Below are positions 2,116 to 13,610 of a stretch of 56,565 nucleotides of DNA, one piece after another. Numbering within the stretch: position 1 is the first letter of the stretch; the number at the start of each line of letters is the position of its first letter. A model generated the notes under the pieces. The model had not been told where the DNA came from. It did no database searches and saw nothing but the letters and a program-made list of their open reading frames with translations. Origin of the DNA: an uncultured Ruminococcus sp. Its GTDB lineage: Bacteria; Bacillota; Clostridia; Oscillospirales; Ruminococcaceae. Made by a program: the position numbers and the translations under genes. The stretch covers positions 1-56,565 of the forward strand of contig CAKSJP010000014.1 in the NCBI GenBank assembly GCA_934463425.1. The letters are read 5' to 3'.

Positions 2116-2406
2116 TCAGATAATCAGTATGCCTTCTGGGTCATAGGTCTCTTTCGCGCCGAAGTGCTCCACGCGCCTTGCCCAATGATTCCCCAGATAA
2201 TAAAACCGCAGACTGTCCCTTTCTTCATCGATCAGCTTCAAAAGCTGATCCTTGACTCTTAAAAATGTACCATAATCCGTGTCTATCTCAAAAACCGAAT
2301 TCTGCACGCGCTGCCCATAATTCTGACAAGTCTTTGCCACCTTTCGGAGTCGCGTTCTTCCCTTGGCATCTGTTGTAGACACATCATAGCTTACAAGCAC
2401 CATCAT
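2116..2406 (-). CDS. cas2: CRISPR-associated endonuclease Cas2 (type I-C)
   Basis: This 96-aa protein is the usual Cas2 length. It begins MMVLVSYDVS, so the conserved aspartate of the ferredoxin-like fold is D8. It contains the I-C-typical stretch RLRKVAKTCQNYGQRVQNSV. Cas2 forms the dimer at the centre of the Cas1-Cas2 integrase that inserts new spacers next to the leader. It is the last gene of the leftward cas operon, 10 bp after cas1, and its stop lies in the right arm of an inverted repeat that reaches into the leader. Confidence 0.97.
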   Translation of the reverse strand: MMVLVSYDVSTTDAKGRTRLRKVAKTCQNYGQRVQNSVFEIDTDYGTFLRVKDQLLKLIDEERDSLRFYYLGNHWARRVEHFGAKETYDPEGILII

Positions 2407-2416
2407 CGGACATCAC

Positions 2417-3439
2417 CTACTTCATCAGAAAACAAGGATACTCTTCGATCTCTCCCCGGATATATTTTGCCAGCAGTGCGCTCTGCACATACGGCAAAAG
2501 CCCCATCTCTATTTTTTCATTCAGATATGGATGCGTCATGATACTGCGCTTTCGCTCCTGCCAGGCGGTCAGGATCTTTTTTCTGCCGTCAGCATTGAGA
2601 AGGACTGCGCCGCTCTCCTGAAATTCAAAATCTTTGCGTGTCAGGACCTTTAAATTGATCTGCGTCAACACGATGCGCTCAGCAATGCAGCGCGTTTCTT
2701 CTATCAAGTCACAGGACAAGCTGCTCCTGCCGGAACGCAGTGCATGATAAAAGCCGTAACAGCTATCCAATCCCACGCTCTCCAGTGCAGAAGTATACGC
2801 CGTCGTCATGATCGCATACAAAAAGGACAGCGCTGCATTGACCGGATCCAGCGGCGGCTTCTTGGTACGGGCGCGCATGCGAAAATCTTCCTTCTGATGC
2901 AGGATCAATTGGTTGAACACGCCGAAATACGCCTTTGCGCAGTTTCCTTCAATGCCCAGCACCATTTCCCGGTCTGTGGTCTGATAGACACGATCAATGC
3001 CGCTTTCCAAAAACGAGATACAGCTGCTCAGTGCGCCGTCTGCATCCAGCTGCGGATTATCGCGTTTAGAGCGCCGGAGCAGGTAGCGTGTATTGGACAG
3101 CTTTGCCGCAACTGTGTTCTGCATCAACAGCGGATCCGGCGAAGCAAACTGTTCAAACTGCGCTTTCCGCAAAAAGATATTTCCTTTGGTTTTTCCCTGT
3201 ATGCGCGCCAACAGTTTTCCGTTAGGGTGAAAAAAGCACAGGTTTACTCCTCGTTCCGCACACGCGCCCATCAGCGCCGGCGAAGCTCCGGGATAGCTGA
3301 AACAATAGATCTCTTCGATGGTGGTAAACGGCATGCGTCTTTTCTCCGCACCGTCACACCGAATCACAACATTTTCACCATCCAGAGTCAGATAAGCGGT
3401 TTCATCCAAAATATAAAGCGTATTCTTCAGCTTTCGCAT
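2417..3439 (-). CDS. cas1: CRISPR-associated endonuclease Cas1 (type I-C)
   Basis: This 340-aa protein is the catalytic subunit of the spacer integrase. The conserved metal-binding residues are visible as E164 in LGIEGNCAKAYF, H232 in GFYHALRSGR and D244 in SCDLIEE. The chosen ATG gives the typical I-C start MRKLKNTLYILDE and has AAAGGAGGGG about 8 nt upstream. An upstream start 96 bp earlier would add a cysteine- and arginine-rich tail that the family lacks. Its start overlaps the end of cas4 by 13 bp, so the two are probably translationally coupled. Confidence 0.97.
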   Translation of the reverse strand: MRKLKNTLYILDETAYLTLDGENVVIRCDGAEKRRMPFTTIEEIYCFSYPGASPALMGACAERGVNLCFFHPNGKLLARIQGKTKGNIFLRKAQFEQFASPDPLLMQNTVAAKLSNTRYLLRRSKRDNPQLDADGALSSCISFLESGIDRVYQTTDREMVLGIEGNCAKAYFGVFNQLILHQKEDFRMRARTKKPPLDPVNAALSFLYAIMTTAYTSALESVGLDSCYGFYHALRSGRSSLSCDLIEETRCIAERIVLTQINLKVLTRKDFEFQESGAVLLNADGRKKILTAWQERKRSIMTHPYLNEKIEMGLLPYVQSALLAKYIRGEIEEYPCFLMK

Positions 3440-4110
3440 ACTGCATCCCCTCCTTTCTGTGCATCGATCCTTTCCCGAACACAATACGGCTTCTGCTTCG
3501 GCAGACAAAGATCGGCAATCGAACAACCGGAGCACTTCTGTCCGCGCTTACGCGCCGGAATCACATGCGATTCCAGAATCGCACGCATCTCCTCCAACAG
3601 CTGCCGTAGCTTGGCATCATATGCAGCATATGCCGTATCAAAAGGCAGCTTCACCCGTTTTCGAGTATCTGCATAATACAGATACGCCTCACTGTCGCAC
3701 TGCCAGATCTGATCGGCACAAACCTTCTGGGCAAATACCTGAATTGCATCTGTTTCATGATACGGCGCATCCTTTGGTGCTTTGGGCTTGTATTCCACCA
3801 GGCGCACCTGGTATGTTCCCGTCAGCCCCGGAACAGCGACGCCGTCCTTTGCCTTGAGAAATTCCACGCAGTCTGTCTTTCCGTAGATCCCATAGGGCAT
3901 ATCCTCCCGATAAACGAACATTGCACTGCACACGGTCTTTCGATGGTCTGAAAACGAATGAGATCCGTCGTGCACATGTTCATGCAGCAGGTCAGCTTTT
4001 GCGACAAAGGCGTTTTCCTGCCAGTCCCGATCGATCTCCAACAGCGCAAACCGTCTGGGACAGTACAGATAATGCTGAATGCTGCGAATTTGAATGGAAT
4101 CCTCGTTCAT
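3427..4110 (-). CDS. cas4: CRISPR-associated exonuclease Cas4
   Basis: This 227-aa RecB-type nuclease trims prespacers and selects for the PAM during adaptation. The four iron-sulfur cysteines are C17 (YLYCPRRF) and C193, C196 and C202 (CSGCSIADLC). Nuclease motifs are D80 in YGKTDCVEF, the E-Y-K core in LVEYKPK (about 105-110) and DAIQVFAQ. The ATG at 4110 overlaps the cas7 stop as ATGA and has GGAGAA upstream. A start 13 codons earlier lies inside cas7 and is less likely. Cas4 is standard in type I-C loci. Confidence 0.96.
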   Translation of the reverse strand: MNEDSIQIRSIQHYLYCPRRFALLEIDRDWQENAFVAKADLLHEHVHDGSHSFSDHRKTVCSAMFVYREDMPYGIYGKTDCVEFLKAKDGVAVPGLTGTYQVRLVEYKPKAPKDAPYHETDAIQVFAQKVCADQIWQCDSEAYLYYADTRKRVKLPFDTAYAAYDAKLRQLLEEMRAILESHVIPARKRGQKCSGCSIADLCLPKQKPYCVRERIDAQKGGDAVCES

Positions 4111-4982
4111 ATTTTCTCCAGAAGTGTAACGCCATCCGGAAGCTGGCAATCCACTGCAATGGTATAATCGCTGAATTTCCGCGGTGTCACAACATCCGCT
4201 TTTTTGGTGACTGTGATCTTATCGAACAGCACATGAGACGGCGCATTACCCAGCACAGAATCATGCCGGAAAACATATAGCTTTCGCATGCACATCTTAC
4301 CTCTTGCAGCGCTGTGGTCATTTTCAAACATATTGATGATGGCTGTCCAGAGCAGTTCCAGATCTTCTTCTCCGAATCCGGTGACCCGCTGCGCCAGAGA
4401 AGCTGAAATATAACCCTCTGCCCGATAGAGACCATAGTAGACCAGGCTCTTCTTTCCGATTTCCGTCATACCTTTTTCCTGGCGGTCGATCGTTGTCTTT
4501 GCCTGCCGGGTAATGGTGATATCCTCCGCCAATACAGGATCGATGCTCCGCGCAAAGTTCAGCTGCACCGGGCCGCGGACAATGCCGCATGGGTTGTTGC
4601 CGGTACTCATAACTGCGCCGAAGGTACGGACATCATAATAATTCCGGCACATATACTTCTGCGCTTTCAGCTGATCGCTCATGGGCGTTTCTTTTTTTCT
4701 GCCCTTTTCCAGTTTCTCTGCGTCATATGCCTCTGTGAACTTCTCATTCAGCGGACGGTCTGTCCGGATCAAAATCTGATAACCTGGCACATCTGCTTTT
4801 GCCAGTTCCACAAAGTTCCGGATCTTCCGCTTCAGACATACATCAGTTACCAGACCCAGAGAAGTTTCCGGGTCTGTCCGGGGCAGATTTCCGGCATCGG
4901 GGTCGCCGTTGGGGTTGCCGTTTTCCACGTCAAACAGCATCACAAAGTCATAGCGGTTCTGAATTGCTTGATTGTTTTCCAT
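4107..4982 (-). CDS. cas7c: Cas7c (Csd2) Cascade backbone subunit
   Basis: This 291-aa protein belongs to the Csd2/Cas7 family, which polymerises along the crRNA spacer to form the backbone of the type I-C surveillance complex. The N-terminal region with DVENGNPNGDPDAGNLPRTD and the later stretch on early conserved basic residues (LKRKIRNF) are typical of the family. It follows cas8c by 17 bp with AGAAAGGATGG before the ATG, and its stop overlaps cas4 by 4 bp. It would also be needed if the crRNA-like RNA at 7705-7795 acts as a guide. Confidence 0.96.
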   Translation of the reverse strand: MENNQAIQNRYDFVMLFDVENGNPNGDPDAGNLPRTDPETSLGLVTDVCLKRKIRNFVELAKADVPGYQILIRTDRPLNEKFTEAYDAEKLEKGRKKETPMSDQLKAQKYMCRNYYDVRTFGAVMSTGNNPCGIVRGPVQLNFARSIDPVLAEDITITRQAKTTIDRQEKGMTEIGKKSLVYYGLYRAEGYISASLAQRVTGFGEEDLELLWTAIINMFENDHSAARGKMCMRKLYVFRHDSVLGNAPSHVLFDKITVTKKADVVTPRKFSDYTIAVDCQLPDGVTLLEKI

Positions 4983-4999
4983 AATAGACCATCCTTTCT

Positions 5000-6841
5000 C
5001 TATTCAGCGGATTTGGGTTCTGTTTTTTTCTGATAAAAATCGGTGATTTGCTGCTGATAGCCGACAATGAAGCAGCCCTGCTCTTCCAGACTCAATGTTG
5101 CTGGAAAGCCGCCGTCCAGCTTGTCCATGATCTCACCGATCAGCTTTTCAAAATACACTTCTCTGCCCTTGTTGCCTGCACCGATCTTTCTCAGATGGTT
5201 CTTTGACAGCTTGTCAAGCTGCGGCAAAATGCGCCGGGGTATGCCGCAGGCGGAAGAAAAATAAGCATCTTTGATGGTACGGTTCAGGTTGCCGTCTGCG
5301 GCTGACTGTTGAATCATTTCGTAAACAGCAAACAATCTGCCGCAAAGATATGCCGGGTTCTGGTTTTCCTTGTTCAGGCTCATGGTGATCTCCTCCTCTT
5401 GATGCGCCAGCCGCGCCTTACGGTTCAGACATGCCTTAATGATGCCTGTGCGCACATCGTTCAGCTTGATAAAATGGTTGTTTTCGTTGTCGCTGTCTGT
5501 TTTGACGCGGCGGATCACGGTGGCGAGCAGGTCTGTGGGATAAGCGCTCCCGTGAAATGCCGCATACAGGATGCTTGCCATAAGCGGTGACGGCACTTTC
5601 GGATTCGTTGCCACCGGCGAAACCAGCTGCTTTCGGATGTCATCAAAGGAGACCTGACGCATCCGCGCCGGGTTGCATGCCAGATCCTTTTGGTGCTGCA
5701 CGAGATTGGCAATGAATGCGCCGTATTTGTCCCGGTACAAAAACTTCTGACAGATGCGGGAACTATTGGGAGAAAGTCCTGCCACATAGAATGTCGCATC
5801 TGCATCCGCATGCAGCGCAGACAGATCGGGGGCTCTACCGAAAACCGCCTGGCGGAAAATGTCATCCAGTTCAGCTTCATTCCTTGCAGTAGGATCACCA
5901 AGCAAAAAAGAAAACAGATCGCACTCTCCGGCATCATCCGGCTTCATGGCAAAATAGACCAGACACATCTCATCCATGATCTTGTGATGACGCCTGTCCC
6001 CAGCCAGATAATTCAGCGCCGAAGTGTATTTCTTCATCGCCTTTTCTGAAATGTTGCTGTTATAGGACTGTGTCTTTCCGTAAGACCAGAACGCCGATTC
6101 CTTCATACCTACCATAACGCACCCCGTGGAATTTCCGCCGGGCAGCTTGATTTTATCGTGGATACGCGCCACCGGTAATACCTCGCCCAAAACAGCACAC
6201 TGCGCCGAAGTGCCGCTCTCTTTCTGTGCCGCCTTTTCAGCAGTCTGCTTCTCCCGAAAAATGCGGTCGTACTTCTCCCGAAAAGCAGGGTCATTCTCCA
6301 GACGGACATTGGGATCACTCTGAAGCCCGAAACAGAAATAGTTGTTCTTATAAAGTGCACCGCATTTTTTCAGATGAGAATTTTCCGTCTCCGACTCCGG
6401 ATTCCAGTTCTGTAAAAACGCATAGAACGCGCGGCAGATCTCTGAATCCAGATCCTGAAAAAATTCCAGGTTATGCGCCACAAAGGCATCGTGGGATTTC
6501 TTCGCTTTATTGGTCTTGTCACAGGGTGTCAGTTCTCCCTGGTCGAGATTCAGACCGAAGAGGTACAGCGGACGGTGCTCAATGGTGTTGGAACAGATTC
6601 CCGTCACCTGTGTCCGCAGCGGAAGCAGACAGGTTCTGGGCGAATATGCGATCTTGGTCTTGCCCTTTTTCTGCGGTGTTTCCACTACATTTCGGATATC
6701 CAGAATGCCGCCGATCTTTCCCTCCGGTGTCAGAAGCACTTCAAAGGAAACCTTCTGTTCCGACCAGCCATCGGGAATTTTTTGTCCGCCGGCACGTTCT
6801 GCCAGCTGGTCTGCATAGCTGCAAAGCGCCTGTATCAGCAT
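5000..6841 (-). CDS. cas8c: Cas8c (Csd1) large Cascade subunit
   Basis: This 613-aa protein matches the size and position of Csd1/Cas8c, the large subunit that recognises the PAM and recruits Cas3. In type I-C an internal start inside cas8c often yields a separate small subunit (Cas11c). I cannot prove such a start here. The opening MLIQALCSYADQLAERAG is family-like, as is the LPGGNSTGCVMVGM stretch near residue 240. Its start overlaps cas5c by 7 bp and it precedes cas7c, the normal I-C order. Confidence 0.95.
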   Translation of the reverse strand: MLIQALCSYADQLAERAGGQKIPDGWSEQKVSFEVLLTPEGKIGGILDIRNVVETPQKKGKTKIAYSPRTCLLPLRTQVTGICSNTIEHRPLYLFGLNLDQGELTPCDKTNKAKKSHDAFVAHNLEFFQDLDSEICRAFYAFLQNWNPESETENSHLKKCGALYKNNYFCFGLQSDPNVRLENDPAFREKYDRIFREKQTAEKAAQKESGTSAQCAVLGEVLPVARIHDKIKLPGGNSTGCVMVGMKESAFWSYGKTQSYNSNISEKAMKKYTSALNYLAGDRRHHKIMDEMCLVYFAMKPDDAGECDLFSFLLGDPTARNEAELDDIFRQAVFGRAPDLSALHADADATFYVAGLSPNSSRICQKFLYRDKYGAFIANLVQHQKDLACNPARMRQVSFDDIRKQLVSPVATNPKVPSPLMASILYAAFHGSAYPTDLLATVIRRVKTDSDNENNHFIKLNDVRTGIIKACLNRKARLAHQEEEITMSLNKENQNPAYLCGRLFAVYEMIQQSAADGNLNRTIKDAYFSSACGIPRRILPQLDKLSKNHLRKIGAGNKGREVYFEKLIGEIMDKLDGGFPATLSLEEQGCFIVGYQQQITDFYQKKTEPKSAE

Positions 6842-7554
6842 ATGATCCCCTCCCGATACTTTTTCACGTCAATGATGCCGTCGATCATATGGGGCCGATA
6901 GTATACCGCATCCGCGCTGTCGGAAAACTGCGGATGTTCCCAGTCGCCGTTTATGGGCTTTCCGCCGTCATGAAAGCGCATGCCATAGAGCATATAGCCC
7001 AGGTCGATATCTCCTTTCAGTTCCGCTGAGATTTCTTCCGGATGGAGCTCGTCCACCAGAGTGATCTTTTTCACCGGAAACTCCCGGCAGCCCAGGCACG
7101 GCTGACAAAAACACTGACCATTTCGCAGCCGCCGCAGCAGAATGTTGTAATGCTTGGCTTCGCACTCGTCGGGATGGTCTGCCTTCAGCCCGGTCATCTC
7201 CATGTGAAAGGCAATGCCGTATTTCACATGCTTCAAGATCATCGAAGCGCGCTGCGTGCGATTCTCAGAGGTATAGATCACCGGCGAGCCGTTCCCTTTC
7301 ATCTGTGCGCGCACCGCAGTATAAGAGACCTTGCTCTTGCACTCATTCCGTCGCACATTCAGAAACTGGATGGGATGATAGACAAAAATTTTGTCTATTT
7401 TGTAACGAACCGGAGGCTTCCAATATATGGACTTGATAAGACCTTCCAGTGCAGAGGGTGTCGGCACGTCATAAGAAACACGCTCCACCTTCATTTCCGG
7501 CCGGGAGAAGCAGGCATAGTCGCCCTCCACCACGATTTGAAATCCATAAGCCAT
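6835..7554 (-). CDS. cas5c: Cas5c crRNA-processing endonuclease
   Basis: This 239-aa protein belongs to the Cas5d/Cas5c family. In type I-C, which lacks Cas6, it cuts the repeat at the base of its stem, leaves the 11-nt handle and stays on the crRNA 5' end. The start MAYGFQIVVEGDYACFSRPE is typical. I chose the ATG at 7554 because AAAGGAG lies 8 nt upstream; a GTG three codons earlier overlaps that ribosome binding site. It is the first gene of the cas5c-cas2 operon, with a promoter at 7587-7615. It is the natural processor of both array crRNA and the mini-crRNA encoded upstream. Confidence 0.95.
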   Translation of the reverse strand: MAYGFQIVVEGDYACFSRPEMKVERVSYDVPTPSALEGLIKSIYWKPPVRYKIDKIFVYHPIQFLNVRRNECKSKVSYTAVRAQMKGNGSPVIYTSENRTQRASMILKHVKYGIAFHMEMTGLKADHPDECEAKHYNILLRRLRNGQCFCQPCLGCREFPVKKITLVDELHPEEISAELKGDIDLGYMLYGMRFHDGGKPINGDWEHPQFSDSADAVYYRPHMIDGIIDVKKYREGIIC

Positions 7555-7572
7555 TTCATCCACTCCTTTCGA

Positions 7573-7609
7573 CTTATTTTATGTTCACTATATCACATTG
7601 CAACTGCAT
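7573..7609 (+). promoter_or_regulatory. Predicted Cascade target site in the cas5c promoter
   Basis: Read on the plus strand from 7576, the sequence ATTTTATGTTCACTAT matches the pseudo-spacer at 7734-7749 (ATTTTCTGTTCTTTAT) at 13 of 16 positions. Positions 1-5, 7-11 and 14-16 agree; 6, 12 and 13 differ. Positions 6 and 12 are bases that Cascade flips out and does not read. The flanking PAM-side triplet is CTT (7573-7575), not the canonical I-C TTC. The site covers the predicted start site and the -10 box. The match is seen directly; function is inferred. Confidence 0.65.
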
Positions 7610-7615
7610 GTGCAA
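7587..7615 (-). promoter_or_regulatory. Promoter of the cas5c-cas8c-cas7c-cas4-cas1-cas2 operon
   Basis: On the minus strand there is TTGCAC (7615-7610), a 17-nt spacer, then TATAGT (7592-7587). The predicted start site is near 7580, giving a 5' UTR of about 26 nt before the cas5c ATG. The site lies directly in front of cas5c, in the gap that separates it from cas3, so the Cascade and adaptation genes can be controlled independently of cas3. Confidence 0.75.
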
Positions 7616-7669: not shown

Positions 7670-7698
7670 TTGATTTTTGTAAAATCATCGCTTATAAT
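7670..7698 (+). promoter_or_regulatory. Promoter of the crRNA-like small RNA
   Basis: TTGATT (7670-7675), a 17-nt spacer and a perfect TATAAT (7693-7698) lie on the plus strand, divergent from the cas5c promoter. The predicted start near 7705 is only about 3 nt before the degenerate repeat. No start codon with a ribosome binding site and a sensible reading frame follows, so the product should be RNA. Confidence 0.75.
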
Positions 7699-7704
7699 AA
7701 GAGA

Positions 7705-7795
7705 GAAGTCTGCAAATTGCAGTGAGTTGAAATATTTTCTGTTCTTTATGAGGAACGATTGGAAGAGGATCCGGTGATTTTGCCGGGTCCTCTTC
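7705..7795 (+). ncRNA. crRNA-like regulatory RNA with degenerate repeat (CreR-like)
   Basis: The unit has three parts. First is a 26-nt degenerate repeat (7708-7733). It begins GTC, forms a 5-bp stem CTGCA-AAT-TGCAG, and ends TGAGTTGAAAT, which is identical to the 11-nt crRNA handle of the array repeats. Second is a pseudo-spacer from 7734 whose first 16 nt match the cas5c promoter. Third is a strong hairpin (7762-7795). The array repeat has an unrelated GC-rich 7-bp stem, so the shared handle is not explained by recent copying. Known relatives in concept are CreA and cas-regulating RNAs, which guide Cascade to partly matching promoters and repress without cleavage. The 3' end is uncertain, because no T-tract follows the hairpin. 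Confidence 0.72.
7762..7795 (+). repeat. Strong hairpin between cas5c and cas3
   Basis: Arms GAAGAGGATCCGG (7762-7774) and CCGGGTCCTCTTC (7783-7795) pair over 13 bp with one G-U wobble and an 8-nt loop. On the plus strand it would close the 3' end of the mini-crRNA 28 nt after the handle. On the minus strand it sits 39 nt after the cas3 stop. Neither strand has a T-run after it, so it is not a classical intrinsic terminator; it may protect RNA 3' ends or attenuate read-through from cas3. Confidence 0.7.
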
Positions 7796-7833
7796 TGCTG
7801 TTCGGAGATTGCTCCCAGCCAAAGGCATGCATA

Positions 7834-10050
7834 TTACGGGAACATGCCATCCCAGAGCAGGTCTCCGTTGTGCTCCAGATTCAAGCCGGTCTCTTTTTCG
7901 TAATATGCCATATCCGCCAGAACGAAAACGCCGTTTCTTTCGCACAGAATGCCGGCTTCTGCCGCCTTGGAAAACGCATGCCGCCGCAGTGAAACAGTAT
8001 AGCGCTGCAGCTTTCGCTTGACCGAAAACTTTCCGGATTCCAGCTTTGCCAGAAGTGCTTTTGCTGTGTCGTCTGTAGGAATCACAACGCCGACTGTGTC
8101 CTCTCGAATGAACCGGAAATTTTCCGCATACGACCGAAACGGCAGATTGTCGATTCCCGTAACATCCCTGGCAATGGTATTGCTCCTGATCTCGTCCTTA
8201 TCGCAAAATGTGTAGAACTGCCGATAATAGGTCTCGATGCATTCCGGGTCGGCGATCTCCGGGCATTTCTGACGCGCCGATTCTGTAAACTGCACCCGTT
8301 GCTCCAGTGCACGGGGCACGCTCTCCTCGGTTTCAAAGACATAGACGTCACCCATTTCCAGTTTTCCCTCCCGGTTGCACCGTCCGGCAGACTGCAAAAT
8401 ATTGTCCAGCCCTGCCATCTGCCGGAATACTGCGGAAAAGTCAAGATCTACCCCGGCTTCCACCAGAGAGGTAGAAACCACTGTGATGGGTACACCCTTT
8501 TTCAGGTCTGCCCGGATCTCTGCAATCACACGAGAACGGTCTGCCGGTATCATGTCCGTGGAAAGGTGATATTTCTTCCCCGAAGCCTGCGCAAAGACTT
8601 CCCGTGCAGATTTGCGCCGATTGACAATAATCAAACTGCTGGGATAGGCAGAAGCCTTCTCCAGTACGTTGTCATAGTCCGTCGTCCCCAGAAAGTGAAA
8701 ACGACACTTCTGAAAAGCGTCAAAATCGGTGCGGTCAGTGATGAGCGGGCAAACCGGAATCCCCGGCAAATACCGCTGAAACAGCTCCGTATAATCCGGC
8801 ATCGTTGCAGACAGAAAGATGGCTTCGCTGTTCAGATAGCGGATCAGATAGCCGATACCGCGCAGACAGGGCTGGAGCAGTTCCACCGGAAGCAGGTGCA
8901 CCTCGTCAAACACGATCACAGCATCCGCCATATTGTGCAGCTTGCGCAGTCCAGTACCTTTATAATGGTAGAGGGACTGGAAAAACTGTACGCTTGTGGT
9001 AATGAGAAACGGCGCATCCCAATTCTCTGTGGCAGACTTTCGGCGCTGTGCCGCAGAAACTGTGTCATCTGCCTGCTCCTCCGGATCGGTATCATAAACA
9101 TAATTAGAATGATGCTGCAAAATGTCTGCATACTGTCCGAACTCCTGTTCAAATTGCTCGGCGGTCTGCTCAATGATGCTCGTATATGGTATCACATAGA
9201 TGATCCGCTTTTTTCCGGTATCTTTCAGCACCTTTTGCAGCGCGATCTTCAGGCTGCACAGCGTCTTTCCGCTGCCGGTGGGCATATTCAAAATAGAGAT
9301 GGGCGCGTCACTTTGCGCGGCATTCTGAAACGCCTGCTGCTGCAAACGCTGCCGTGCCTTTTGCAGAGGTGTTTCAGCCCGAAATCCGGAAAGCTTCTGG
9401 TTCAGCGCTTCCAGAACTCCGGCAAAGTCCGCAGACAGACCGCGTTGTTTCTGCGGACTGCAAAACTGCTCCGTGTCCAGGAAATCGGCATCTGTCAGGC
9501 AGGAAAAAACATATCGTGTAAAAAAGGCATACTGTTCCAGCATCTCCGTCTGGTCTTTTGCTCGGAGAAACTCCTGCATCATGGCGGCGGCATCCGGGAT
9601 CTCCAGAGATACATCCTCCCGATAGGCGCTGAAATCCCGTTCCCCGGTATAATCCGGCGCGCGCCCCAACCGATGATACAATGCAGTTCCGTCATAAGGA
9701 TACCCTCTGCCAGACTTCGTTCCGCCGTCCGGCAGTCCGGTATGATGCCCGGCAATGCAGTATTCCAGCATCCGGGCAACGCATTCCTCCATCCTGTTTT
9801 TCGGCATCTGATCCAGGGCGATCGCGCCGCAGGCGGAATGCTCGAACTTCGGCTTTCCGGTCATCAGCCGCCGCTGAAATGCCGGCGCATATTTTCCGAT
9901 GTCATGATAGCGTCCGGCAGCCCGGCAGATCTCCCGAAGTATTTCCTTCGAGAATGCACCCGCCATATCAGAGACATTGGTCAGGTGCTCCAGAACCGTC
10001 TGTTTCTCGCCGTCCTCCCGAATATGTGCATAATATTCCATTTTTTCCAC
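7834..10050 (-). CDS. cas3: Cas3 HD nuclease-helicase (type I-C)
   Basis: This 738-aa protein carries both Cas3 parts. The N-terminal HD nuclease shows H49-D50 in GRYHDIGKY. The superfamily 2 helicase has Walker A NMPTGSGKTL near 253-262, a DEVH box in VIVFDEVHLLP near 380, SATMP near 411 and the arginine-finger motif QSAGRCNREG near 552. After Cascade binds a target with a proper PAM, Cas3 is recruited and degrades the DNA. The gene has its own promoter and is separated from cas5c by 270 bp that hold the small RNA, so the nuclease and Cascade can be set at different levels. Confidence 0.97.
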   Translation of the reverse strand: MEKMEYYAHIREDGEKQTVLEHLTNVSDMAGAFSKEILREICRAAGRYHDIGKYAPAFQRRLMTGKPKFEHSACGAIALDQMPKNRMEECVARMLEYCIAGHHTGLPDGGTKSGRGYPYDGTALYHRLGRAPDYTGERDFSAYREDVSLEIPDAAAMMQEFLRAKDQTEMLEQYAFFTRYVFSCLTDADFLDTEQFCSPQKQRGLSADFAGVLEALNQKLSGFRAETPLQKARQRLQQQAFQNAAQSDAPISILNMPTGSGKTLCSLKIALQKVLKDTGKKRIIYVIPYTSIIEQTAEQFEQEFGQYADILQHHSNYVYDTDPEEQADDTVSAAQRRKSATENWDAPFLITTSVQFFQSLYHYKGTGLRKLHNMADAVIVFDEVHLLPVELLQPCLRGIGYLIRYLNSEAIFLSATMPDYTELFQRYLPGIPVCPLITDRTDFDAFQKCRFHFLGTTDYDNVLEKASAYPSSLIIVNRRKSAREVFAQASGKKYHLSTDMIPADRSRVIAEIRADLKKGVPITVVSTSLVEAGVDLDFSAVFRQMAGLDNILQSAGRCNREGKLEMGDVYVFETEESVPRALEQRVQFTESARQKCPEIADPECIETYYRQFYTFCDKDEIRSNTIARDVTGIDNLPFRSYAENFRFIREDTVGVVIPTDDTAKALLAKLESGKFSVKRKLQRYTVSLRRHAFSKAAEAGILCERNGVFVLADMAYYEKETGLNLEHNGDLLWDGMFP

Positions 10051-10102: not shown

Positions 10103-10371
10103 CTGTAGTTTTTCATTTTTTCACCGCAAGTTTCGACGAAATTCGACAAAGCAGAAAAACGCGCCTGCCAGTTCTAAAAATAGGCAGCGTTGCAAAAACT
10201 TATGTGATGCTGTCTACGATTGTAAATTATATTTGAACGGACAGACGTGCGTCTCGCAGCTCTGCTATAATAGAGACAGTTCCAGATTGCAGGGCACATC
10301 AAAAAAACCGGCAAAAAAATCGACGGAATGTAACTCTTTTGTGGTGTTTACAAAAATCACCGAAATTGTTC
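10103..10371. other. Gene-free gap between cas3 and the membrane-protein genes
   Basis: No coding sequence is supported here. I see a TATAAT (10266-10271) without a clear -35 box but with the palindrome AGACG-TG-CGTCT (10243-10254) where one would be, which suggests a regulated rightward promoter. A bulged hairpin between AACGC near 10160 and GCGTT near 10190 may mark a transcript end. Nothing else is recognisable. Confidence 0.4.
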
Positions 10372-10452: not shown

Positions 10453-11718
10453 ATGGCAAAAAAGGTAAAGATCCAGTATACGGCCGAACCGCCGCATACA
10501 GAGATCACAGCAGACGGAATGCAAATGGACACGTCCCGGATCGAGGGACGCCGACTGGAGGAATGGGCATATCCGTTTTTCATCCAGAAGGTGCAGTGGA
10601 ACGGCATCAGCGAGGAACTGAAAGCTTTCACCGGTACAGACGATGTGCACATTCAGTTTCAGGGGACTGAGGCAGAGATGCGCATCCTGCGGGATGCGGT
10701 AAAAAACACCCCCATGAAGGTGGCAGGAACAGACAACCGCGTTGTCATTCTCTACTGCCGGGACAACCTGACCACGCGCATCACTGTCAACGGTAAAATG
10801 TTCGACACATCGCGCATCCAGAACCGCAGCATTGAAGAATGGGTCGATCCCTTTCAGTTCCGGGATCTCCGCTGGGATGGTATTTTTCAGGAATTGGAAA
10901 ATGTGCTGGGCACAGACGAATATACCATCCAGTTCGCCGGCGAACAGGAGGATATGCGGGAACTGATGCAGCACTGTCCGGATACCGTGAGTCTCACCTT
11001 TAAGGCAGCAGAAACGGCAAAGCACATGCCGAAAGCAGGAAACCTGAAAATGCCTAACGTAACGGAAAACGAAAATCTCAAGGCAGCTGCCGGCGCTGCT
11101 GCCGATGCCGCTGTCAATGCCGCAAAAAAGCTGGACAGCAGCGTTTCCAATGCTGTCAGCAACATCCAGAACGCAGAAGGCTACCAAAAGCTCATGGCAA
11201 ATGAAAAGGTGCAGAAGGTCAAGAACAACAGCGTGATCCAAAAGATCGCCGGCTTCTGGAAGGGCTTAAACAAGATCGTGAAGTATGCCGTCGTGATCGG
11301 TCTCGTCGTTGTGATCCTGGTAATCGTTCTGGTCAGCTGCTTCGGCAGAGACAAGAGCATTATTGCAAAATCAGACGGTCAGCTGAGTGCGATACAGTGC
11401 CCGCACTCCTGCGAGGGCGGAAAATTCGGCTTCTTTGACATGAGCGAATTGAGCGATAATGTTAAAGGCTTAGGCTATTTGTATTTTAGAGCAAATGATT
11501 ATACCACTACCTATTTGCTGGAAGGCGAGGACGGTACGCAGTGTGAAACGATCGCCGGAGCAGGTTCTGCGGAAGGAGAAGCTTCTGGCTTTGATAGTGA
11601 CGCTAAAGTGCAGAGTGATGACGTTGACGGCGACGGCTATGTGACATTCACCATCAAGAAATTTGACGGCGAAGATTATGTAGAAGTATGCACTATCAAG
11701 GGAGAGGTGAAAGAATGA
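10453..11718 (+). CDS. Unrecognised membrane protein with duplicated N-terminal domain
   Basis: I do not recognise this 421-aa protein. Residues 17-83 and 109-172 are a tandem repeat (offset 92) sharing DTSRI, R-(L/I)-EEW, PF, W-(N/D)-GI, EL, GTD and IQF. An Ala-rich linker follows, then one TM segment at about 277-296 (YAVVIGLVVVILVIVLV) and a C-terminal domain of about 120 aa. There is no signal peptide, so the duplicated domain is probably cytoplasmic and the tail external. The ATG at 10453 has GGGAGG 8 nt upstream and follows the T15 promoter. The stop overlaps the next gene as ATGA, so the two are coupled. Function unknown; signal transmission across the membrane is only a guess. Confidence 0.85.
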   Translation: MAKKVKIQYTAEPPHTEITADGMQMDTSRIEGRRLEEWAYPFFIQKVQWNGISEELKAFTGTDDVHIQFQGTEAEMRILRDAVKNTPMKVAGTDNRVVILYCRDNLTTRITVNGKMFDTSRIQNRSIEEWVDPFQFRDLRWDGIFQELENVLGTDEYTIQFAGEQEDMRELMQHCPDTVSLTFKAAETAKHMPKAGNLKMPNVTENENLKAAAGAAADAAVNAAKKLDSSVSNAVSNIQNAEGYQKLMANEKVQKVKNNSVIQKIAGFWKGLNKIVKYAVVIGLVVVILVIVLVSCFGRDKSIIAKSDGQLSAIQCPHSCEGGKFGFFDMSELSDNVKGLGYLYFRANDYTTTYLLEGEDGTQCETIAGAGSAEGEASGFDSDAKVQSDDVDGDGYVTFTIKKFDGEDYVEVCTIKGEVKE

Positions 11719-12587
11719 TTTGTCCAAACTGCGGATTAGACTGCGAGGATAACCAGGACACCTGTCCCCTCTGCGGCTATTCCTTCACGGAAAACCCTGC
11801 TCCGGCTGATACACCTCAGCCGGAAGCAGCCGTACCACAGAGCACAGAGGCACCAACAGACACGGCTGTCCCTGTGCCGAAAAAGAAAAATACAGCGGTA
11901 ATTGTACTGGCGATTCTCGTTGCAGTGCTCGTACTGGCCGGAGCGGTAATGGCTGTGCTCCTGCTGCGTCCGAACGATAACGGCGAAAGCCAGACTGCGG
12001 CAGGCGTGCAGACAACGCTGACCACCACCACTACAGAAGCGACTACCACTGCAGAAACCACAACTGTCACGACCACAGAAGCCACCACGACCACACAAGC
12101 GACTACTACCACGACCGCTGCAACAGAAGCAGCTACAGAAGCAGCAGAAGCCGCACCACAGGTACTCAGCGGCAGCAGCTTCCGTGTGGAAAAGGGCACG
12201 GCTTTTTCCGGTGAGGTTTTCTGCATGGATGTCACATGGTTGGGGCAAAGCAAAAGCTATGTGGAAAACGCACTTGGCGCGTCGCTGTCCCTCGAAGACT
12301 GGCAGTGGTGGGGAAACGATCTGAAAGCGGCGTTTATCACCTACAACAACCTGGACATTGCACTGTTTTTCCAGAATGACATATTTGTCATGGCGTATTA
12401 TGACTGTAATTCCAGTGTATCGGATGACATTGCCGCCGCACAGGATTTTGTATTTTCCGATTATCCGGCTTCCTCCAACGGTGTCACCTTCGGCGAAGCA
12501 GGATACCTGGAGATCTATGAGGAAGTTTACGCAGAAACTGGTGAATATGTCACCCGGCAACGCTATGTCAGCTATGACATGTATTAA
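11715..12587 (+). CDS. Zinc-ribbon, single-TM protein with Thr-rich stalk (paralogue 1)
   Basis: This 290-aa protein has four parts. An N-terminal zinc ribbon (MICPNCGLDCED with a second CPLC pair) is followed by a Pro/Ala linker. One TM lies near 60-82. A Thr/Ala-rich stalk near 98-145 is followed by an ectodomain of about 140 aa. The ectodomain contains WLGQSKSYVENALG and repeated aromatic beta-strand-like segments. That pattern recalls BLIP/SmpA-like small beta folds, but I cannot assign it. The likely topology is a cytoplasmic zinc ribbon with the stalk and ectodomain outside. The first half is nearly identical to the gene at 12666, and the ectodomain is unrelated to it. Confidence 0.85.
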   Translation: MICPNCGLDCEDNQDTCPLCGYSFTENPAPADTPQPEAAVPQSTEAPTDTAVPVPKKKNTAVIVLAILVAVLVLAGAVMAVLLLRPNDNGESQTAAGVQTTLTTTTTEATTTAETTTVTTTEATTTTQATTTTTAATEAATEAAEAAPQVLSGSSFRVEKGTAFSGEVFCMDVTWLGQSKSYVENALGASLSLEDWQWWGNDLKAAFITYNNLDIALFFQNDIFVMAYYDCNSSVSDDIAAAQDFVFSDYPASSNGVTFGEAGYLEIYEEVYAETGEYVTRQRYVSYDMY

Positions 12588-12592
12588 GAAAC

Positions 12593-12641
12593 CTGTCTTT
12601 ACATATGCTCGAAAATCCACACATATTTCTTGTAAAGACAG
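12593..12641 (+). repeat. Inverted repeat between the two zinc-ribbon paralogues
   Basis: CTGTCTTTACA (12593-12603) and TGTAAAGACAG (12631-12641) are perfect 11-bp arms around a 27-nt loop. The loop holds further short pairing (TATG/CATA), so the stem may extend. No T-run follows. It lies between the stop of paralogue 1 and the ribosome binding site of paralogue 2, a place for attenuation, RNA processing or a regulator. Confidence 0.65.
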
Positions 12642-12665
12642 ATCCTAAAACGGAGGCGAAATGAA

Positions 12666-13589
12666 ATGATTTGTCCAAACTGCGGATTAGACTGCGAGGA
12701 TAGCCAGGACACCTGTCCCCTCTGCGGCTATTCCTTTGCGGAAAAAGAATCCCCTGCTCCGGCGGACATTCCTCAGCCGGAAGCAGCCGCACCACAGTAT
12801 GCGCCGACAGACACGGCAGCTGTGCCAAAAAAGAAAAACACGGCGGTAATTGTACTGGCAATTCTCGTTGCAGTGCTCGTGCTGGCCGGGGCGGCGATGG
12901 CTACGCTTCTGCTGATGCGCCACAATGACAACGGCGGCAGCCAGACTGCGGCAGGCGTGCAGACAACGCTGGCCACCACCACTACAGAAGCGACTACCGC
13001 CACAGAAGCCACAACTGCCGCGACCACAGAAGCCGCCACTACTACAGAAGCGACTGCCACCACGGCTGCTGCAACAGAAGCAGCCACCGAAGCGGCGGCT
13101 TCTGAAAGCGGCATCGACTACTTCTCCGCATATTACACCGGGTTGGAACTGACGAATGTCTCTAACGCAGACGGGTTCTACAAGGGCTATACGCTGTTCG
13201 ATATCAACCACGACGGCACACGGGAGTTTATCCTGAAAATGGGCAGCAGCGAAGCGGAAACCGTCTACAAGATCTGGACGATCTCCGGAAACCAGATCCT
13301 CTACTGCGGCGAAGCAGAAGGCTTTTCCTGCCATCTGGAAGAGTTTGAGGGCAACCTGTACACCATGCTGGGGCACACGCAGTATGAAGCCGCCACAAGG
13401 ATCTCCATGGACAGCAATTACAGCATCAGCGAACAGATTGTATATGAGCATAATCTGGATGATACTGAGGATTATTCCTGCTACGGCACAGATGTGGGCA
13501 TGTATGACATCTCTGACACTTCCCTGCTGCTGAAGCTGAGCACGGCTACCTTTGATGCAGGACACTACAGCTATCAGGAAGATTATTAA
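12666..13589 (+). CDS. Zinc-ribbon, single-TM protein with Thr-rich stalk (paralogue 2)
   Basis: This 307-aa protein has the same layout as its upstream neighbour. The zinc ribbon is MICPNCGLDCED/CPLC, the TM lies near 58-83, and a Thr/Ala stalk runs to about 145. The ectodomain differs: it starts SGIDYFSAYYTGLELTNV and contains FDINHDGTREFIL. The D-x-N-x-D-G spacing there resembles an EF-hand or dockerin-type calcium loop. The ATG has CGGAGGCG upstream. The gene ends 21 bp before a bidirectional terminator, closing the three-gene unit. Role unknown; an envelope sensor or binding protein would fit the layout. Confidence 0.85.
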   Translation: MICPNCGLDCEDSQDTCPLCGYSFAEKESPAPADIPQPEAAAPQYAPTDTAAVPKKKNTAVIVLAILVAVLVLAGAAMATLLLMRHNDNGGSQTAAGVQTTLATTTTEATTATEATTAATTEAATTTEATATTAAATEAATEAAASESGIDYFSAYYTGLELTNVSNADGFYKGYTLFDINHDGTREFILKMGSSEAETVYKIWTISGNQILYCGEAEGFSCHLEEFEGNLYTMLGHTQYEAATRISMDSNYSISEQIVYEHNLDDTEDYSCYGTDVGMYDISDTSLLLKLSTATFDAGHYSYQEDY

Positions 13590-13610
13590 GGCATTCCGGG
13601 CAATACGCAA

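Follow-up and report, generated by a model that had tools for sequence, protein, structure and literature searches.

A degenerate CRISPR unit inside a type I-C cas locus is predicted to guide Cascade to its own operon and has counterparts in 44 further loci

Why should a complete type I-C locus carry a single degenerate CRISPR repeat between cas3 and cas5c, on the strand opposite to its genes? The locus lies on the minus strand of the 56,565-nucleotide stretch of DNA analyzed here, which we call the window, and comprises cas3, cas5c, cas8c, cas7c, cas4, cas1, cas2, a leader, and an array. Cas3 is encoded at 7834 to 10050 (Cas3c, 2.8e-190) and Cas5c at 6835 to 7554 (PADLOC Cas5c, 3.9e-54; the start codon was picked by eye, and a GTG at 7563 is the alternative). 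The genes cas8c, cas7c, cas4, cas1, and cas2 follow at 2116 to 6841, the leader side at 1947 to 2115, and the array, likewise on the minus strand and cut by the window edge, at 1 to 1946. The array repeat, GTCACGCCCCACGCGGGCGTGTGAGTTGAAAT, is 32 nt long, carries a 7-bp GC stem, and is present in 29 exact copies at 56 to 1946 plus one more that is cut at the window edge, with spacers of 33–36 nt. The gap between cas3 and cas5c is about 270 nt in the window; it is shorter than 100 nt in 141 of the 182 loci eligible for the survey described below. Elsewhere in the window, at 11688 to 13610, lie two paralogs side by side that have a cysteine-rich start and a threonine-rich linker; their repeat blocks are 86–96% identical and ~951 nt apart. 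Based on sequence comparison, we consider it very probable that the unit at 7670 to 7796 is a mini-CRISPR whose likely product, a crRNA-like RNA, would be a CreR of type I-C and would direct the cell's Cascade to repress the operon that encodes it.

The unit is read on the plus strand. Its predicted promoter at 7670 to 7698 consists of TTGATT (7670–7675) and TATAAT (7693–7698) with a 17-nt spacer between them, matches the consensus at 10 of 12 positions, and is the top of four promoter-like sites in the 361 nt scanned, where 0.7 were expected. The degenerate repeat, GTCTGCAAATTGCAGTGAGTTGAAAT at 7708 to 7733, measures 26 nt as opposed to the 32 nt of the array repeat and is made up of GTC, a 5-bp stem (CTGCA at 7710–7714, TGCAG at 7718–7722), and the 11-nt crRNA 5' handle TGAGTTGAAAT at 7723 to 7733. 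This handle is identical to the last 11 nt of the array repeat, is kept in relatives, and occurs in its exact form only once on the plus strand of the 56,565 bases; the 7-bp GC stem of the array repeat is not shared by the unit. A pseudo-spacer occupies 7734 to 7760, that is, the 27 nt up to the next hairpin, and its matched part is 7734–7749. The 15-bp hairpin that follows at 7761 to 7796 is a likely transcript end and a substitute for the second repeat, and there is no T run after it. Folded alone, the 5-bp hairpin is no better than shuffled sequences (z −0.35); the segment 7723 to 7797, which includes the downstream hairpin, folds very stably (z −5.9). A search of Rfam gave just two matches, both below threshold. 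The original prediction had described an opposite-strand unit between cas3 and cas5c with the promoter TTGATT-17-TATAAT, one degenerate repeat retaining GTC at its start and the exact array handle at its end, and an unrelated CTGCA/TGCAG stem in place of the GC stem. The sequence bears out this anatomy, and the unit does lie antisense inside a complete type I-C locus.

Which DNA might such an RNA recognize? In type I Cascades the bases at positions 6, 12, and 18 are flipped out, and these positions of the pseudo-spacer were therefore left unscored in our target scan (CreA leaves 6 and 12 free). The predicted target lies on the plus strand at 7573 to 7592, with a CTT flank at 7573–7575 and a protospacer at 7576–7592, over the predicted −10 region of cas5c. 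Read against the target ATTTTaTGTTCacTAT at 7576–7591 (small letters are mismatches), the pseudo-spacer matches at positions 1–5, 7–11, and 14–16 and mismatches at 6, 12, and 13. With 13 of 15 paired positions matched (13 and 17 fail), the match in the window is among the weaker ones of our set. The site ranks first among the 8,408 sites of the window that have a YTY flank, with a score of 16 as against 10 for the next; when any flank is allowed, one further site ties at 16 (41966, CAT flank). Only 1 of 3,000 Markov-resampled gaps reaches the score of the target, and 200 shuffles of the spacer reached it once. The predicted promoter region of cas5c, at 7576 to 7614 on the minus strand, holds two overlapping weak candidates that match the consensus at 9 of 12 positions each, namely TGCACA-16-TATAGT at 7614–7587, with its −10 element TATAGT at 7592–7587, or TTGCAA-16-TAAAAT at 7603–7576. 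When TTC was demanded, the search first pointed to position 10112, at the cas3 promoter, where 6 of 7 seed bases match; this TTC-flanked site was dropped because the cas5c site is far better once other flanks are allowed. The original prediction had named no target, and the one found before cas5c supports its guide-RNA interpretation.

We propose the following course of events. Cas5c would cut the transcript just before the handle, Cascade would assemble on the processed RNA, and a partial R-loop spanning roughly three Cas7 segments would form over the −10 region. This R-loop would block RNA polymerase and would be too short to license Cas3. The predicted operon cas5-cas8-cas7-cas4-cas1-cas2, of which cas5c is the first gene, would be repressed in this way via the predicted cas5c promoter. 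Array crRNAs would compete for Cascade, and repression would be relieved when they abound or when Cascade is inhibited; such relief is reviewed for CreR in other subtypes in passages of PMC12737573.

Our survey of related loci drew on a Cas5c-alignment scan, which supplied 80 loci (the best 80 of 589), and on five further genome samples searched for Cas5c. These were the order of L001 (32 of 295 genomes match, 30 regions taken), the order of L042 (17 of 295, 15 regions), the phylum of L074 Desulfonema magnum (54 of 297, 35 regions), the phylum of L069, a Rhodobacteraceae (29 of 349, 20 regions), and the class of L059 Geosporobacter (52 of 341, 40 regions), 140 regions in all. We take the phyla to be Bacillota (L059), Desulfobacterota (L074), and Pseudomonadota (L069). 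Twelve loci were dropped before counting, six as exact duplicates and six as re-fetched copies (L081–L086), near-duplicates remaining in the counts. This left 215 loci, 182 of them, including the window, eligible by virtue of a full cas3 and at least 300 nt upstream; the 182 are weighted towards kin of the window. Handle-like places, defined by at most one mismatch to a list of I-C handles, were sought within 700 nt upstream of cas3 and inside the cas3-cas5 gap, and those with a YTY-flanked target of score at least 16 in the scanned regions were called units. Gaps were scanned only if longer than 70 nt, so that shorter gaps are without gap units by construction. Since the score threshold selects for matches at positions 1–17, only the values at positions 6, 12, and 18, the YTY count obtained when no flank was required, and the decoy counts are free of selection. 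L114 and L115 were included via a widened handle list, and L027 (score 16 at two mismatches) was left out of the count.

The 182 eligible loci contain 83 handle-like places near cas3 or cas5, and these yield 46 units in 45 loci, as compared with 3 loci in all from the 533 places found with 20 shuffled (decoy) handle sets. The same plan, in different letters, is thus present in 44 loci besides the window. Broken down by sample, units occur in the window (1/1), the Cas5c-nearest loci (16/64), the order of L001 (11/24), the order of L042 (1/10), the phylum of L074 (1/32), the class of L059 (12/33), and the phylum of L069 (3/18); 137 of the 182, including the near kin L004, L005, L006, L045, and L088, have no unit by these criteria. 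Of the units, 26 occupy the gap and 20 lie upstream of cas3, and both strands are used. The original prediction had named as its refutation related gaps that lack a handle matching their own repeats, and the comparison supports it: where the gap measures 180 nt or more, as it does in 37 eligible loci, 26 have a local-type handle and a match within the gap and 11 have not. Two of the 11 (L154 and L165) contain a handle-like place but no convincing target, as does L105, and all three were left out of the count; L007 (gap of 346 nt, incomplete cas3, outside the 37) has no unit. Agreement with each locus's own array was checked in a 32-unit table, which includes L094 (incomplete cas3) and L097 (score 14), both outside the 46. 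Of the 23 units whose array is usable, 21 have a handle within one base of it, among them those with GTGGATAGAAAT, the unusual repeat ending of two arrays; seven units without a usable array repeat and two with a wrong or truncated one (L074, L099) were set aside. It is across relatives that the hairpin becomes significant: a stem of at least 4 bp that ends exactly at the handle is found in 27 of the 46 units versus 8.8% of control positions, with many different stem sequences. A promoter-like site of at least 9/12 precedes 27 of the 46 (5.5 expected from shuffles).

Unit presence needs 29 changes on the Cas5c tree (FastTree), and the distribution is therefore patchy. The close pairs L003/L004 and L087/L088 have a gap of 261 or 272 nt with a unit versus 23 or 70 nt without one, which suggests that the unit and the surrounding gap were gained or lost as one block. 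Among the sister loci L036 and L040, whose Cas5c proteins are nearly identical, L036 has an intact unit; in L040 the handle has decayed (TGAGTATAATT) and there is no good target, as if the brake were being lost. In four units upstream of cas3 (L011, L030, L036, L044) there is a second, array-like GC hairpin whose handle has decayed to TGAGTTTT. This second repeat mirrors the first in that the GC hairpin is kept and the handle lost, and the decay is found where no handle is needed. The spacer between the repeats, read by eye, is 21 nt in L011, L030, L044, and L013, the last of which keeps the second handle. L194 (G1485) has two units, at ~1053 and ~3440 in cas orientation, with different spacers that match before cas5 and before cas3, respectively. 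A single genome, that of L074 Desulfonema magnum, has two Cas5c-like genes ~5.7 kb apart.

The placement of the targets bears on what the units do. The target is at most 180 nt from a cas gene start in 39 of the 46 units, including all 19 of the window's branch (the CTY branch, see below); in the other seven the distance is 292–567 nt, a poor fit to cas silencing. For gap-type units the target lies before cas5, and cas3 would be spared; for tight-type units it lies before cas3, from whose promoter the entire operon is presumably transcribed. Alternatively, the unit could act as CreA, the antitoxin RNA in an addiction module of the CreTA kind, with a small-toxin promoter and not that of cas5c as its target. 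CreA shares the pairing rule (excerpts of PMC8501985), the creTA of I-F sits in the cas3-csy1 gap (excerpts of PMC10097628), and L219 and L223 have a small hydrophobic ORF between the target and the unit. However, the window target begins ~20 nt before the cas5c start, which leaves no room for another gene such as a toxin, and this fact together with the short distances in 39 of the 46 units and in all 19 of the window's branch leads us to regard the CreTA reading as improbable. In the regions 3246–3607 of L219 and 3263–3607 of L223 (both cas-oriented), two loci of the Pseudomonadota sample, these ORFs encode 54 and 33 amino acids and have a ribosome-binding-like site and a hydrophobic stretch. 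For these two loci, given an ORF between target and unit, CreTA or CrePA fits better than CreR, and the ORFs are candidates for small membrane proteins that a type I-C unit guards in the manner of CreTA or CrePA.

The pattern of matches argues for a Cascade-bound target. Over the 46 units, the matching fraction at positions 1–9 is 1.0, 1.0,.98,.98, 1.0,.28, 1.0,.93, and.98; at positions 10–18 it is 1.0, 1.0,.15,.98,.96,.96,.83,.65, and.26; and at positions 19–24 it is.20–.30. The background level at 6, 12, and 18 is a free result because those positions were unscored, and so is the drop after position 17, as 19 and 20 were scored. At the paired positions own spacers match in 95% versus 40% for swapped spacers; at 6, 12, and 18 the values are 23% and 28%. 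All 27 units for which both the gap and the region upstream of cas3 were scanned match their own region (for the remaining 19 only the region before cas3 was scanned). In the first 16 units, with YTY flanks, the own spacer is better than all 15 others in 14, the exceptions being L003 (one tie) and L071 (spacer frame one base off in that comparison; score 16 in the correct frame), and for 15 of the 16 no more than 2 of 200 shuffled spacers score as high as the own one. Spacer and target change together in the window's kin L001, L002, L003, and L087. For the CreA of I-B the available text of PMC8501985 gives a mapped rule of pairing at 1–5 and 7–11 with 6 and 12 free, and in I-F 17 of 20 bases pair (PMC10097628, in part). 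An ordinary antisense small RNA, pairing with cas mRNA in the absence of Cascade, would account for a unit antisense to cas genes and for a target that may include the cas5c transcript start. Yet units and targets occur on either strand, and unmatched positions 6, 12, and 18 together with a YTY flank are sensible only for a Cascade-bound DNA target, so that we give this explanation very little credence.

The RNA might guide Cascade to a different outcome, for example the buffering of free Cascade or activation through displacement of another regulator. The Cascade footprint overlaps the best-scoring predicted core promoter of cas in 24 of the 46 units, where 15.3 are expected, and this modest overlap, a weak result, would be compatible with such an outcome. 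We nonetheless hold it to be just as unlikely as the antisense reading, given that the target lies at most 180 nt before the start codon in 39 of the 46, where bound Cascade is expected to block initiation or early elongation, and given that CreA and CreR repress, according to excerpts of PMC13131331, PMC8501985, and PMC12737573. Least likely of all is a dead array remnant or stray repeat, to which the single degenerate repeat and the decayed version in the relative L040 might point, considering that the handle is exact while the stem changes, that the unit has a promoter-like start, and that spacer-target pairs occur in 45 loci as against 3 in 20 decoy sets.

We return to the guide that would repress its own operon, and to the flank, the candidate PAM. 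When units were called with no flank requirement, 46 of the 83 places scored at least 16 and the flank was YTY in 46/46, compared with 8.6% of positions; at a score of at least 14 it was YTY in 47/48. The branch with the handle TGAGT(T/A)GAAA has CTY in 19/19 units (CTC in 11, CTT in 8), and all 27 other units have TTY (TTC in 24, TTT in 3), the TGGATTGAAA branch being the TTY side in contrast to the window's CTY branch. On the Cas5c tree (FastTree) this split requires one change, and the 19 CTY units fall inside a 58-row set with 99% local support. TTC is the type I-C PAM, and the CTT and CTC of the window's branch differ from it, which counts against the CreR reading. So clean a division by repeat branch points to a switch of PAM along a single branch of the I-C tree. 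In a check of the flank by protospacers, a comparison of three array regions with a phage collection gave no usable protospacer, and for five spacers of the window, compared by their 26-nt cores, viral contigs contained no exact match. When 3,733 array spacers were compared with the fetched loci, two of the matches listed were of at least 24 nt, and no pattern was seen. At least 40 separate pieces of MT836150.1 (Bacteriophage sp., human faeces) match the array region of L050; they look like repeats common to both, so that this record may itself carry a type I-C-like array.

Since CreR targets cas and CreA a toxin, CreR is the better name for the window unit. The primary CreR paper, of 2023, reportedly concerns a cas-regulating RNA. 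Among the papers listed in the literature searches, none reports an I-C CreR; the 2023 paper may list I-C. The tracr-L of Cas9, a long form of the type II tracrRNA, carries an internal guide and causes the effector to repress the promoter from which it is itself expressed. The RNA of the window unit would act likewise, but tracr-L belongs to type II and has an internal guide without a repeat handle. The term "I-C" is absent from the covered portions of the main text of PMC8501985, PMC9458426, PMC12737573, and PMC10097628. CreR is named for I-B, I-E, and V-A in excerpts of PMC13131331 or for "Type I and Type V-A" in those of PMC12737573, and is further reviewed in PMC12948488 (in part). In these extracts, CreR is a mini-CRISPR beside cas with a partial match to a cas promoter and generally no toxin; the window likewise has a degenerate-repeat, crRNA-like unit linked to the cas locus, with a handle suited to the local effector and limited complementarity to a predicted cas promoter beside the candidate PAM CTT. 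The window unit differs in being I-C and in having one repeat, with a hairpin replacing the second, and the I-C units differ in a matched stretch that ends at 16–17 nt and in a flank that is CTY in the window's branch and TTY elsewhere. The CreA of I-B also has degenerate repeats (passages of PMC8501985 and PMC9458426), and in one haloarchaeal CreA described there a terminator replaces the second repeat; the CreA of I-B and I-F, however, targets a toxin promoter according to the portions covered, whereas the window unit is predicted to target DNA just before cas5c. The argument for a guide that cannot recombine with the array is published for CreTA repeats (PMC9458426, in part). RNA anti-CRISPRs (Racr), virus-encoded inhibitors in excerpts of PMC10651486, are solitary repeat-like units as well; in contrast, the window unit was not found to be phage-encoded, lies inside a complete cas locus, matches DNA before cas5c, and has like units in 44 further cas loci.

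Taken jointly, the data may describe a so far unreported I-C branch of cas-silencing guides in at least three phyla, with a three-segment, 17-nt R-loop and shortened spacers, a record of a PAM switch from TTY to CTY, and, in Pseudomonadota, guides that guard small membrane proteins as addiction modules; that all of this holds together we rate at slightly below an even chance. With a predicted self-silencing guide in 45 of the 182 I-C loci sampled, the way in which such systems restrain themselves would become a testable question. The rule itself combines a local handle with a 5-1-5-1-5 match to DNA next to the closest cas gene, and it can serve for other subtypes as well. If the PAM-switch reading is true, natural regulators would disclose the PAM of uncultured systems. 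If the proposed mechanism is true, the units would report which flanks are preferred and how much pairing suffices for Cascade to bind but not cut, and I-C systems engineered for transfer to other hosts would lose their brake if the unit is left behind.
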